Below the pieces are notes generated by a model, which ran no database searches, was not told where the DNA came from, and saw nothing but the letters and a program-made list of their open reading frames with translations. From Gammaproteobacteria bacterium (lineage in GTDB: Bacteria; Pseudomonadota; Gammaproteobacteria; HK1), in NCBI GenBank assembly GCA_021773635.1, contig JAJFJV010000025.1, positions 124,001-188,000 of the forward strand: a DNA stretch of 64,000 nt. The letters run 5' to 3'. The first letter of the stretch is position 1; the number at the start of each line of letters is the position of its first letter. The translations under genes were made by a program, and so were the position numbers. This document shows, one piece after another, positions 33,862 to 39,160 of the stretch.

Positions 33862-35098
33862 ATATCGCGATGAGCAACTTTTTGTCGAGGGACTGGCGCT
33901 AGACGAACTTGCCAGGCGCTTTGGTACGCCGGCCTACGTCTATTCGCGCGCCGCTATTGAGGCCCAATGGCGGGCCTTTGATGAGGGGTTGGGCTCAATT
34001 TCTCATCTGGTTTGCTACGCCGTAAAGGCCAATTCCAATCTCGCGGTGCTGAACCTGCTCGCACGCCTGGGCTCCGGCTTCGATATTGTCTCCGGCGGTG
34101 AGCTGGAACGGGTGCTCTGTGCCGGGGGTGATCCGGGGAAGATTGTGTTTTCGGGGGTCGGGAAGAGCGAACAGGAGCTGTGCCGCGCGCTTGAGGTCGG
34201 AATACTCTGTTTCAACATTGAGTCCGAGGCCGAGCTCGAGCGCCTGAATCACTTGGCGGGGGAAATGTCCTGTCGCGCACCGGTCTCGCTACGGGTCAAT
34301 CCCGACGTCGATCCCAAAACTCATCCCTATATCGCCACGGGCCTCAAGGAACACAAATTCGGTATTGCCATGGAGGATGCCGTTGATTTGTATCGGCGTG
34401 CCCATGATATGTCGCACATCACAGTCCAGGGCATTGACTGTCATATCGGTTCTCAGCTCACAGAACTCGAGCCTTTTGCCGAGGCAACGCGCAAGGTGCT
34501 GGAGTTGGCCGATGAGTTATTGGCATCGGGTCTCGAGCTCACTCATCTCAATCTGGGTGGTGGCCTGGGTATCCGTTTTCGTGACGAAAACCCGGCAACA
34601 CCGGCGGTATATACCGGGCTCTTATGCGAGCTGGTGCGGGAGCGTCCATTCAAACTGTTGATAGAACCTGGCCGAGCCATCGTGGGTAACGCAGGCCTGC
34701 TACTCAGTCGGGTTGAATACATCAAGCACTCCGGCAGCAAACATTTCGCGGTGGTAGATGCGGCGATGAATGATCTGATGCGCCCGGCGCTCTATCAGGC
34801 GTGGCACGACATCGTACCTGTACACAAATGCACCGACATCGATAGCGAGACTTACAACGTGGTTGGACCGGTCTGCGAGAGTGGAGATGTCCTGGGGGCT
34901 GAGCGTGAACTTCGCGTCACTGCTGGCGATTTATTGGCGGTGCATTCGGCAGGTGCCTATGGTTTCAGTATGAGCTCCAGCTATAACTCACGTCCGCGAG
35001 CGGTGGAGTTGATGGTAGACGGGAACGAGGTGTACGTGGTGCGCGAGCGTGAACGGGTGGAGCAACTCCACGCGGGCGAGTTCCTGCTTCCGGATTGA
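33848..35098 (+). CDS. lysA: Diaminopimelate decarboxylase
   Basis: A PLP enzyme of 416 residues that makes lysine from meso-diaminopimelate. PLP Lys is in YAVKANSN, the phosphate-binding glycine-rich segment is LNLGGGLGI and the active-site Cys is in GPVCESGD. The frame opens earlier at 33755 but overlaps lptM; the ATG at 33848 (MAAFEYRDEQL) matches the family start. The usual downstream neighbour dapF is absent here. Confidence 0.95.
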   Translation: MAAFEYRDEQLFVEGLALDELARRFGTPAYVYSRAAIEAQWRAFDEGLGSISHLVCYAVKANSNLAVLNLLARLGSGFDIVSGGELERVLCAGGDPGKIVFSGVGKSEQELCRALEVGILCFNIESEAELERLNHLAGEMSCRAPVSLRVNPDVDPKTHPYIATGLKEHKFGIAMEDAVDLYRRAHDMSHITVQGIDCHIGSQLTELEPFAEATRKVLELADELLASGLELTHLNLGGGLGIRFRDENPATPAVYTGLLCELVRERPFKLLIEPGRAIVGNAGLLLSRVEYIKHSGSKHFAVVDAAMNDLMRPALYQAWHDIVPVHKCTDIDSETYNVVGPVCESGDVLGAERELRVTAGDLLAVHSAGAYGFSMSSSYNSRPRAVELMVDGNEVYVVRERERVEQLHAGEFLLPD

Positions 35099-36141
35099 TG
35101 ATGGCCAAGGCAAAGGCGGTAGCGCTCATTTCCGGAGGGCTTGATTCCCTGTTGGCGGCGCGAGTGGTGCTCGGCCAGGGCGTACACGTGGAGGGGATTA
35201 ATTTCTTCACCGGTTGCTGTGTCGAGGGGCATACCCACGCCATCCGCAAACGGGACTCTGAAAAGCCCAAGCGCAACAATGCCCTGTGGGTCGCCGAGCA
35301 GCTGGGTATCAAGCTGCATATCATCGATGTGGTGGAAGAATACAAAGACGTATTGCTCAACCCGAAGCACGGTTACGGTGCCAATCTGAATCCCTGTCTG
35401 GACTGCAAGGGCTTCATGGTGCGCAAGGCGGATGAGTGGGCCGTGGCCCATGGTTTTGATTTCCTCTTGAGTGGTGAAGTGATAGGGCAGCGTCCCATGT
35501 CGCAGCGCATGGATACCATGCCGGTGGTGGTGCGTGAGTCCGGTGCCGGTGAGCGCCTGTTGCGTCCGCTTTGCGCGAAACTTTTACCCCCGACCCTGGC
35601 GGAAACCCGCGGTTGGGTTGACCGCGAACAATTGCACGATTTTTCCGGGCGCAGCCGCAAGCCGCAAATGGCGCTGGCGGAGAAATACGGTTTTACCGAA
35701 TACGCCCAGCCCGCGGGTGGTTGCTGTTTTCTCACCAACCGTGAGTACAGCAGCAAACTTGGTGATTTATGGAACGCGCGTGGCCACCGCGAATATGAGC
35801 TCGATGATATTTTGTTGCTCAAGGTAGGGCGCCACTTGCGCCCGCGGCCCAATTTCAAGCTGATACTCGGGCGTGAAGAGGGGGAAAATAATTATCTGCG
35901 TGGTTACTGTAGCCAGTTTAGCCACCTGCGGATTCTCAGTCATCGTGGACCGCTGGGGTTAATTGACGGCGCTGCCGATCGGGATGATTTATTGCTCGCG
36001 GCCCGGCTGGCGGCCCGTTTTTGCCAGGGGCGGGATGCAGCGCAGGTGGAAATAGAGGTCCATGAGCATGGTGGTGAAACCTGGACCACCCTGGTGCGGC
36101 CGATGCCAGTGGCAGAAGTATTGCGGGAATGGTACGTATGA
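35098..36141 (+). CDS. PP-loop tRNA thiolation enzyme (ThiI/MnmA-like)
   Basis: A protein of about 347 residues. The N-terminal ATP pyrophosphatase loop is ISGGLDSLLAARV, and cysteines in FTGCCVEGH, CLDCKGF and AGGCCFLT are candidates for thiol chemistry or metal binding. The C-terminal part (GRHLRPRPNFKLILGREEGENNYL) resembles the RNA-binding NFACT-R-like module. This fits a tRNA thiouridine synthase, but which base is modified cannot be told. The start overlaps the lysA stop (TGATG), and the end overlaps the TusA-like gene by four bases, suggesting a functional pair: carrier plus thiolase. Confidence 0.8.
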   Translation: MMAKAKAVALISGGLDSLLAARVVLGQGVHVEGINFFTGCCVEGHTHAIRKRDSEKPKRNNALWVAEQLGIKLHIIDVVEEYKDVLLNPKHGYGANLNPCLDCKGFMVRKADEWAVAHGFDFLLSGEVIGQRPMSQRMDTMPVVVRESGAGERLLRPLCAKLLPPTLAETRGWVDREQLHDFSGRSRKPQMALAEKYGFTEYAQPAGGCCFLTNREYSSKLGDLWNARGHREYELDDILLLKVGRHLRPRPNFKLILGREEGENNYLRGYCSQFSHLRILSHRGPLGLIDGAADRDDLLLAARLAARFCQGRDAAQVEIEVHEHGGETWTTLVRPMPVAEVLREWYV

Positions 36142-36401
36142 GCGGTCAATCGGCCCCGGAGCATCTGGATGCGCGGCGTTTATTGTGCCCGCTACCGGTG
36201 ATTCGTACCCAGGACCGGATAGTGGATATGCGGGCTGGTGATATTCTGGCGGTATGCTGTTCCGACCCCGGCGCCCGCTACGATATTCCCGCCTGGTGTC
36301 GTATTAATGGCCACAAGATCCTCGAGATCAGTGAAGGGGATTACGAATTCACCATCACACTCCAGGTGGGAGAGAGCGATGCAGTCCAGCCCGGCGATTG
36401 A
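36138..36401 (+). CDS. TusA/SirA family sulfur carrier
   Basis: An 87-residue protein with the family signature LDARRLLCPLPVIRTQ, persulfide-forming Cys17. TusA proteins accept sulfur from cysteine desulfurases and pass it on to thiolation or sulfur oxidation enzymes. The ATG at 36138 overlaps the stop of the thiolation enzyme (ATGA), so this is probably its dedicated donor. A longer start at 36129 is possible. The 3' end overlaps the transporter gene by 23 bases. Confidence 0.87.
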   Translation: MSGQSAPEHLDARRLLCPLPVIRTQDRIVDMRAGDILAVCCSDPGARYDIPAWCRINGHKILEISEGDYEFTITLQVGESDAVQPGD

Positions 36402-37572
36402 GACACCCGGGGAAGAGATAGATAGCCAGGAACGCTATCGCGAGACTCGCCGTGTGACACTGGTGGGTTCGGTGCTCGATGTATTTCTCGTAATCATCAA
36501 GCTTTACGGTGGCTGGTTTGCCCATTCCCAGGCGCTTATCGCCGACGGCATACATTCCCTTTCGGACCTCGCCACCAATATCGTCGTACTGGTGGCCGCA
36601 AAGCATAGTCATCAGGACGCAGACGAACTGCATCCCTATGGGCATGGCCGGGTCGAGACCGTGGCCACGGTAATTCTGGGGTTCAGTCTGGTAGTTGTAG
36701 GTGGTGGCATTGCGTACGACGCGGTACATCGTCTGTTTACCCCGGAATTACTGCTGCAACCCGGTATCTGGGCACTGGTGATTGCCGCCTTCTCGGTGTT
36801 GAGCAAAGAGGCCCTGTACCACTACACGATACGTTCAGCTCGCCGTCTGCGTTCCAATATCCTGCGTGCCAATGCCTGGCATTGTCGCAGTGATGCCATC
36901 TCCTCCATCGTCGTAATCTTCGGGGTTGCCGGTTCCATGGCGGGTTTGCCCTATATTGATGCCATCGCAGCCATTGTAGTGGCGGGCATGATTGCCAAAA
37001 TCGGTGTCGATTTTGTCTGGAGCAGTACCCGGGAGCTCATTGATACCGGGCTTGATGCCGAGGCGGTGGACCACATCCGCGAGACCATCACCGCCGTGGA
37101 CGGGGTGAGTGCGCTGCACATGTTACGCACCCGCCAAATGGCCGGGCGGGTTTTTGTCGACGTACACATCATGCTGGAAGAGCCGCGGATCAGCGTCTCG
37201 GAAGGGCATCAGATCAGCGAGGTGGTGCGCGGGCGGCTGATTCGCAGCATTGATGACGTTTCCGATGTGACGGTACATATCGACCCCGAGGATGATGAAG
37301 AGGCGATGCCCAACCGGGCGCTTCCGTCCCGTGGCAAGCTGCTGAAGCGTTTGCAGGAATGCTGGCAGACTATTGACGCAGCGCGGGATATCCAGAACGT
37401 CACCCTGCATTATCTGGATGGAAAAATTTACCTGGATTTACGTTTGCCCCTGAGTTGTCTGGATGGGGGGCTAAGCAGTGCGACCCTGACCGAGACCTTT
37501 GCGGAGGCGGTTAGCCAGGAGGATGATATTGCCGAGGTGCGTTTGTTTTTCTACCAGGCGGAACAGCACTAG
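36379..37572 (+). CDS. Cation diffusion facilitator transporter with tandem C-terminal domains
   Basis: A protein of 397 residues with six helices. Metal-site residues of the CDF family are present: ADGIHSLSDL (two Asp) in the second helix and WHCRSDAISS (His/Asp) in the fifth. The first cytoplasmic domain (to about residue 290) is standard. About 100 extra residues follow (DAARDIQNVTLHYLDGKIYL onward) that look like a second, related domain, making it longer than FieF/ZitB. It exports Zn2+, Fe2+ or similar; specificity unknown. The ATG at 36379 has GGGAGAG upstream. Confidence 0.88.
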   Translation: MQSSPAIETPGEEIDSQERYRETRRVTLVGSVLDVFLVIIKLYGGWFAHSQALIADGIHSLSDLATNIVVLVAAKHSHQDADELHPYGHGRVETVATVILGFSLVVVGGGIAYDAVHRLFTPELLLQPGIWALVIAAFSVLSKEALYHYTIRSARRLRSNILRANAWHCRSDAISSIVVIFGVAGSMAGLPYIDAIAAIVVAGMIAKIGVDFVWSSTRELIDTGLDAEAVDHIRETITAVDGVSALHMLRTRQMAGRVFVDVHIMLEEPRISVSEGHQISEVVRGRLIRSIDDVSDVTVHIDPEDDEEAMPNRALPSRGKLLKRLQECWQTIDAARDIQNVTLHYLDGKIYLDLRLPLSCLDGGLSSATLTETFAEAVSQEDDIAEVRLFFYQAEQH

Positions 37573-37750: not shown

Positions 37751-39160
37751 ATGTCCGCTGAAGATGTCTTGAAACTCATGCAGGAAAAAGAAGTGAAGTT
37801 CGTGGACCTGCGATTCACCGATACCCGTGGCAAGGAACAGCATGTGACCATGCCGGCTAATCAGATCGATGCCGACACCTTTGAAGACGGCAAGATGTTT
37901 GATGGCTCCTCCATTGCCGGCTGGAAGGGTATCAATGAGTCGGACATGATCCTGATGCCGGATGCCGACAGCGTGGTGATTGACCCCTTTACCGAAGAAG
38001 TCACCCTCAACGTGCGTTGCGATGTCTACGAACCGACCACTATGCAGGGTTATGAGCGGGATCCCCGTTCCACCGCTCACCGTGCCGAGGCCTATCTCAA
38101 GGCCAGTGGTATCGCTGACACCGCATTCTTTGGGCCAGAGCCGGAGTTCTTCGTCTTTGATGATGTGCGCTGGAATGCCGATATGCAGGGCGCCGGATAC
38201 AAGATTGATTCCGAGGAGGCGGGCTGGAACTCGGAGCGGGTGTATGAGGACGGCAATATGGGGCATCGCCCCGGCATCAAGGGCGGCTATTTCCCGGTGC
38301 CGCCAGTGGACTCCATGCACGATCTGCGTTCCACCATGTGTCTTGCGCTGGAGGAAATGGGGGTTCCGGTAGAGGTCCATCATCACGAGGTAGCCACTGG
38401 CGGCCAGAATGAGATTGGCACTCGCTTTAATACCCTGGTACGCAAGGCGGACGAGGTGCAGATCAACAAGTATGTGGTGATGAACGTGGCCCATGGTTAC
38501 GGCAAGACCGCTACCTTTATGCCCAAGCCGCTGGTGGGAGATAACGGCAGCGGTATGCACGTACACCAGTCGCTGGCGAAAGATGGCAAGAACCTGTTTG
38601 CCGGGGACAAATACGGCGGGCTATCCCAGACCGCGCTTTACTATATCGGCGGTATCTTCAAGCATGCCCGTGCCCTCAATGCCTTTACCAATGCCAGTAC
38701 CAATAGCTACAAGCGACTGGTTCCGGGTTTTGAGGCGCCGGTGATGCTCGCCTACTCGGCGCGTAATCGCTCGGCCTCGGTACGTATCCCCTACGACCCC
38801 AGCCCCAAGGGTCGGCGAGTTGAAATACGTTTTCCTGATGCCACCGGTAACCCGTACTTTTGTTTTGCGGCCATGTTGATGGCGGGTCTGGACGGTATTC
38901 GTAACAAGATCGAGCCGGGGGCGCCCATGGACAAGGATCTCTACGATCTGCCGCCCGAGGAAGAGAAAAATATTGCCACCGTGTGCCATTCGCTGGACCA
39001 GGCGCTGGATGCCCTGGACGCGGATCGTGAGTTTCTGCTGGCCGGTGGCGTGTTTACCAATGACACCATTGATGCCTACATTGCACTGAAGATGGAAGAA
39101 GTAACGCGTCTGCGCATGAGCACTCATCCGGTGGAGTTCGATCTCTATTACAGCCTGTAA
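37751..39160 (+). CDS. glnA: Glutamine synthetase, type I
   Basis: An enzyme of 469 residues that makes glutamine from glutamate, ammonia and ATP. Family motifs include [39 protein letters not shown]-like segment ([13 protein letters not shown]), [10 protein letters not shown] and the adenylylation site DLYDLPPEE (Tyr near 398). It is the GS-I beta type found in proteobacteria. The ATG follows GGAGGAG. Expression is expected from the sigma-54/NtrC promoter upstream. Confidence 0.98.

Follow-up and report, generated by a model that had tools for sequence, protein, structure and literature searches.

A PP-loop/NFACT-R_2 protein encoded next to TusA is a predicted tRNA 4-thiouridine synthase of genomes without ThiI

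A three-gene locus and its source genome

We analysed a 64,000-nucleotide stretch of DNA, hereafter the window (contig JAJFJV010000025.1 of assembly GCA_021773635.1, positions 124,001 to 188,000), from a Gammaproteobacteria genome of 2.55 Mb in 46 contigs (99.6% complete). Three overlapping genes on its forward strand encode a PP-loop protein with a C-terminal NFACT-R_2 domain, the sulfur carrier TusA and a cation exporter of the CDF family (Table 1). From its domains, neighbours and distribution across genomes, we predict that the PP-loop/NFACT-R_2 protein is probably a TusA-fed synthase of tRNA 4-thiouridine (s4U) that takes the place of ThiI.

The stop codon of the PP-loop gene (36139-36141) and the start of the tusA gene share the four bases ATGA, and the CDF gene begins 23 bases before the tusA gene ends. 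Upstream, the last base of the LysA gene, 35098, is also the first base of the start codon of the PP-loop gene (window 35095-35100), so that LysA may share the transcript in this genome. An earlier note on this DNA, made from the sequence alone, had described an overlapping trio with 4- and 23-base overlaps; the coordinates of the open reading frames (ORFs) agree with it, and the pairing of the first two genes recurs in relatives, as reported below.

Table 1. Features of the three-gene locus, by position in the window (aa, amino acids)
Feature	Position	Strand	Basis
PP-loop/NFACT-R_2 tRNA thiolase gene, 347 aa, putative s4U synthase	35098..36141	+	Pfam PF02568, PF03054, PF18297
PP-loop motif SGGLDS (aa 12-17), ATP pyrophosphatase site	35131..35148	+	conservation 0.99-1.00 in 143 sequences
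PCLDC motif, Cys100 and Cys103	35392..35406	+	143/143; MnmA alignment
GGCC motif, Cys209 and Cys210	35716..35727	+	Cys210 143/143, Cys209 138/143; MnmA alignment
NFACT-R_2 RNA-binding domain, aa 244-346	35827..36135	+	PF18297 E 4.5e-30
TusA sulfur-carrier gene, 87 aa	36138..36401	+	PF01206 E 3.8e-20
TusA persulfide Cys17 of the CPxP motif	36186..36188	+	120/120 TusA neighbours
CDF cation exporter, FieF-like, 397 aa	36379..37572	+	PF01545, PF16916; TIGR01297 233 bits
Glutamine synthetase GlnA, after the trio	37751-39160		

Domains and family assignment

Pfam assigned the N-terminal part of the PP-loop protein to a ThiI/MnmA-type HUP domain (PF02568, E 7e-10; PF03054, E 4e-9) and the C-terminal part to NFACT-R_2 (104.3 bits against a cut-off of 26.9). 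The PP-loop motif begins at residue 12, no THUMP domain was matched in a Pfam scan up to E 10, and no rhodanese domain was found by Pfam. Both curated cut-offs were missed: the ThiI model TIGR00342 reached 37.7 of 264.5 bits, over residues 4-159 only, and the MnmA model 35.2 of 284 bits. Together with a separate MnmA gene elsewhere in the genome, these scores rule out that the protein is an ordinary MnmA or ThiI, in line with what the earlier note had expected.

The second protein is TusA by PF01206 (71.9 bits against a cut-off of 28.6) and stays under the cut-off of the narrower TusA equivalog (46.5 of 78 bits). By profile, it and the third protein are ordinary members of their families, TusA and FieF/YiiP respectively.

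Other thiolation genes of the genome

TusA is the entry carrier to the TusBCDE-MnmA route, and the copy in the trio is the only TusA match in its genome; presumably, then, it also feeds that route, and it is not clearly the dedicated sulfur carrier supposed in the earlier note. Besides MnmA, the genome encodes a TtcA and a longer TilS-type protein (both named by size and motif) and, at another place, a tusD-tusC-tusB-tusE/dsrC cluster, and no ThiI was found in it at E 1e-30. With MnmA, TtcA and TilS present and ThiI absent, 2-thiouridine at position 34 (s2U34) and 2-thiocytidine at position 32 (s2C32) have their enzymes and s4U at position 8 (s4U8) does not. Since MnmA and TusDCB-TusE/DsrC, the standard genes, are located apart from the trio, the trio represents a separate route, and the suggestion that it is not the standard TusABCDE-MnmA one holds. 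The TusE/DsrC protein beside tusDCB (L283:6815-7156, contig C17) carries a pair of C-terminal cysteines with a spacing of ten residues, as is typical of DsrC rather than TusE.

Conservation of the PP-loop/TusA pair

Relatives were sought in a named-genome set (80 loci kept of 191 relatives found), in a class sample of 274 evenly sampled Gammaproteobacteria genomes and in a phylum sample of 299 genomes, some genomes being common to the last two. In the named-genome set, TusA adjoined the PP-loop gene at 76 of the 80 kept loci (tblastn). Cultivable gammaproteobacteria with the PP-loop gene in this set include Thiohalophilus thiocyanatoxydans (L004) and Aquisalimonas lutea (L078). NFACT-R_2 was matched in 138 of the 274 class genomes, and the PP-loop profile was matched at 137 of these 138 loci. 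The exception (L267, in the 1.4 Mb genome G046) is a PP-loop/NFACT remnant with an internal stop, and G190 of the same genus has an intact frame.

For the class neighbourhood we counted TusA at most 300 bases downstream, at loci with at least 400 bases downstream of the gene (129 loci); the CDF gene and GlnA were counted at loci with at least 1490 (123 loci) and at least 4500 bases (86 loci). TusA lay within 300 bases downstream at 111 of the 129 loci. In the phylum sample, 43 loci from 46 positive genomes were examined (G000, G023 and G070 being counted in the class instead); the PP-loop profile was covered almost from end to end at 42 of the 43, and TusA was found within 300 bases at 30 and farther off, within 3.1 kb, at 5 more. 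Because the pair recurs in relatives, class loci and phylum loci, we do not regard it as a chance pairing. The earlier note had pointed to neighbourhood conservation as a check on its proposal, and both the domains and the conserved neighbourhood bear out the part of it that pairs a thiolation enzyme of tRNA type with TusA.

At the 18 class loci without TusA, no substitute carrier was seen among the next ORFs, which were inspected by eye with no library scan. A divergent PP-loop/NFACT subgroup without adjoining TusA comprises L259, L261, L263, L264 and L265, together with L262, which lies near a contig end. GlnA came after the PP-loop gene at 58 of 86 class loci, every one of them with TusA. 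The idea, drawn from Pseudomonas, that ThiI and the PP-loop gene occupy a common locus beside glnA was rejected: GlnA was near ThiI at only 2 of 21 loci, in divergent orientation.

Mutual exclusion with ThiI

The modification s4U8 is abundant in tRNA and serves near-ultraviolet sensing and tRNA quality control, with ThiI taken as its writer. In the class sample, the PP-loop/NFACT gene was present in 138 genomes and ThiI in 21, with 116 genomes carrying neither and a single one (G236) carrying both, against 10.6 expected with both (Fisher p = 4.6e-6). Counted by family (169 families), the figures were 84 with the PP-loop/NFACT gene, 18 with ThiI and 1 with both (p = 3.6e-5). The phylum sample gave 46 genomes with the PP-loop/NFACT gene, 109 with ThiI and none with both, where 16.8 were expected (p = 9e-11, a value that overstates independence because a few families dominate this sample); by family, 18 PP-loop and 17 ThiI families did not overlap. 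L262, of the divergent subgroup mentioned above, belongs to G236.

ThiI exclusion alone would also fit an enzyme that replaces ThiI in supplying sulfur for the thiazole of thiamine, with no tRNA modification involved, since ThiI has a part in thiazole synthesis as well in E. coli and Salmonella (PMC11417400). We consider this extremely unlikely: a reference title in the same paper has that role depending on the rhodanese domain, which Pfam did not find here, and the RNA-binding domain and the link to RudS described next point to tRNA.

Co-occurrence with the s4U eraser RudS

According to PMC11417400, RudS (TudS+DUF1722) takes s4U off tRNA, 94% of species with DUF1722 have ThiI, and two RudS groups (A and B) occur without ThiI, perhaps with another ThiI architecture or without s4U. 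Before running the comparison, we wrote down the prediction that the PP-loop gene would be enriched in ThiI-less genomes with DUF1722. Of the 73 class genomes with DUF1722, 61 had the PP-loop gene without ThiI, 10 had ThiI without the PP-loop gene, 1 had both and 1 had neither. Among ThiI-negative class genomes, the PP-loop gene was found in 61 of 62 with DUF1722 versus 76 of 191 without (p = 7e-19), and in 56 of 57 at E 1e-15. The same comparison by family gave 48 of 48 versus 35 of 103 (p = 4e-17), and all 58 class families with DUF1722 had one writer or the other. In the phylum sample, 77 genomes with DUF1722 were divided into 18 with the PP-loop gene, 55 with ThiI and 4 with neither, and among ThiI-negative genomes the PP-loop gene occurred in 18 of 22 with DUF1722 versus 28 of 168 without (p = 1.5e-9).

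The five DUF1722 genomes without a writer are 86% (G226), 78% (G408), 74% (G424), 83% (G476) and 67% (G528) complete, and the genus-mates listed for each of them have the PP-loop gene or ThiI. Full-length TudS+DUF1722 proteins are encoded at 57 of the 58 DUF1722 loci that were examined, and the cysteines of their TudS part are kept in 57, 57 and 55 of 57. We also considered that RudS and the PP-loop gene might share an operon and dropped the idea, no such arrangement being present at the class loci examined or at the 43 phylum loci. The only match in the RudS neighbourhood check was a TudS-like ORF adjoining the ThiI gene at L176 (G082).

Conserved cysteines and fold

Cys100, Cys103 and Cys210 of the PP-loop protein were invariant in 143 of 143 sequences, and Cys41 and Cys209 were cysteine in 138 of them. 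With the phylum loci and the window sequence aligned, Cys100 and Cys103 were cysteine in 43 of 44 sequences, the other being a gap in a truncated sequence, and Cys210 in 44 of 44. The extra cysteines that the earlier note remarked on in the thiolase are therefore a conserved property of the family. They form a CXXC motif with a third cysteine, the pattern of iron-sulfur (Fe-S) dependent PP-loop thiolases, which suggests that Cys100-x-x-Cys103 and Cys210 make up an Fe-S or a persulfide site. A review (PMC5372739) describes a [3Fe-4S] cluster held by CXXC plus a third cysteine in methanogen ThiI and in Ncs6, which makes a cluster plausible here. Like the group of methanogen ThiI, Ncs6/NcsA, TtuA and TtcA, the protein combines a PP-loop with these cysteines; it differs in its RNA-binding domain, and its cluster is putative.

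An AlphaFold2 model of the protein (54 sequences) had a mean predicted local distance difference test score (pLDDT) of 87.6, with low values at residues 41-50, 91-100 and 201-220, that is, in the cysteine loops. For the catalytic domain of this model, the top VIA Z was obtained with the T. maritima ThiI-RNA structure 4kr6 (Z 16.1, root-mean-square deviation 2.6, 167 aligned), followed by YcfA (15.6, tied with ThiI), LarE (14.8) and MnmA/TrmU 2hma (14.2). The C-terminal part was closest to the NFACT-R of FBPS (5h3w, Z 13.9) and RqcH (8s1u, Z 13.7).

The protein might instead make 2-thiouridine or 2-thiocytidine, as a second enzyme of the MnmA or TtcA kind, or it might thiolate some other position in tRNA. 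In alignments, Cys103 corresponds to the catalytic cysteine (ILC) of E. coli MnmA and Cys210 to the persulfide cysteine (GICF) of MnmA chain 9hln, so that both members of the MnmA catalytic pair (E. coli Cys102 and Cys199) have counterparts; Foldseek places MnmA/TrmU structures first by E-value, and the known role of TusA upstream of MnmA would also fit. Shared with MnmA are the PP-loop and this pair; the C-terminal domain is another one, the curated MnmA cut-off is missed, and the genome already holds both MnmA and TtcA. Moreover, the exclusion concerns ThiI and the co-occurrence concerns the s4U eraser. On balance we find such an activity unlikely.

Predicted function and mechanism

ThiI and the PP-loop/NFACT-R_2 protein have in common a PP-loop domain, the best structural match of the catalytic domain, a complementary distribution and, as we propose, the product s4U. 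The latter protein differs in having no NFLD-THUMP or rhodanese part, in its C-terminal NFACT-R_2, in its TusA neighbour and in scoring far under the ThiI cut-off. The site of the predicted s4U synthesis is most likely U8. There, the PP-loop domain would adenylate uridine 8 with ATP, with NFACT-R_2 holding the tRNA in place of the N-terminal NFLD-THUMP of ThiI. A cysteine desulfurase would load TusA, which would in turn deliver persulfide sulfur to the cluster or to Cys210; Cys100-x-x-Cys103 and Cys210 may either hold an Fe-S cluster, like those of methanogen ThiI and Ncs6, or carry out a persulfide exchange of the MnmA kind.

Several observations weigh against s4U synthesis in place of ThiI. 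Neither enzyme is carried by 116 of the 274 class genomes, and G236 carries both. Genomes are not independent samples, and counting by family lessens this dependence without removing it. TusA was not an immediate neighbour at 18 of the 129 loci in the class sample and at 13 of the 43 in the phylum sample. No DUF1722 was found in the genome of the window, and RudS never adjoined the PP-loop gene at the class loci examined or the 43 phylum loci. The CxxC is also seen in MnmA chain 9hln (alignment) and is thus no proof of a cluster. Finally, s4U does not follow from the fold by itself: for the catalytic domain ThiI and YcfA lie less than 1 Z apart, and the first rank by Foldseek E-value goes to MnmA.

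A study by Burroughs and Aravind on a DNA-glycosylase fold in NFACT proteins (RNA Biology, 2014) reportedly predicted in silico that an NFACT RNA-binding domain and TusA-like proteins act in a new tRNA 4-thiouridylation pathway; a CDF gene is not known to figure in that prediction. The locus agrees with that prediction in the fusion of NFACT-R to a PP-loop thiolase and in the TusA neighbour, here with a 4-base overlap. The present analysis goes beyond it in three respects: ThiI is excluded almost completely, the co-occurrence with RudS was tested, and the CXXC plus cysteine is invariant. A literature search limited to open-access papers returned no experimental test of the PP-loop/NFACT enzyme.

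Taken more broadly, it seems somewhat probable that PP-loop/NFACT-R proteins are a second s4U8 synthase, commoner than ThiI in the class sample (138 versus 21 of 274 genomes), Fe-S-dependent and directly fed by TusA, and that they are the absent s4U writer of those Pseudomonadota that have RudS and no ThiI, a gap left by the RudS paper for its groups A and B. If most ThiI-less Pseudomonadota with the PP-loop gene use it in this way, s4U would occur far more widely than surveys of ThiI imply, TusA would have a second client that it serves directly, and there would be an explanation for the RudS genomes without ThiI that were described in 2024.

The CDF gene

The third protein, which the earlier note had recognised as a cation exporter, is a CDF exporter (Cation_efflux and ZT_dimer domains). 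Its four-residue transport site H59/D63/H168/D172 was kept in 69 of 69 sequences; it differs from FieF/YiiP in a longer C terminus and in H59, which stands where FieF has Asp in the alignment (H-D-H-D versus D-D-H-D), a pattern that we take to be zinc-type.

The earlier note had suggested that the trio links a tRNA or cofactor sulfur pathway to metal homeostasis, its exporter being the tie. In favour of such a tie, the CDF gene is third at 69 of 123 class loci, never without TusA, and a 2024 paper (PMC11302051) connects TusA with the iron homeostasis of E. coli. Against it stand the substitution in the transport site, the absence of the CDF gene from 54 of 123 class loci and from 35 of 41 phylum loci, mostly non-gamma (6 of 41 have it), and two loci (L351 and L367) at which it remains behind TusA where TusA sits away from the PP-loop gene. 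We therefore hold the reading to be very unlikely and the link of the trio to metal homeostasis to be weak; the CDF gene is optional at these loci and accompanies TusA, not the enzyme, and nothing was found pointing to a role of the exporter in thiolation. What stands of the earlier account is the thiolase-TusA pair on a separate route; TusA is not clearly dedicated, the metal link is weak, and neither the NFACT-R domain nor s4U had been named in that account. At one further locus, L352, two TusA-profile matches lie close together.

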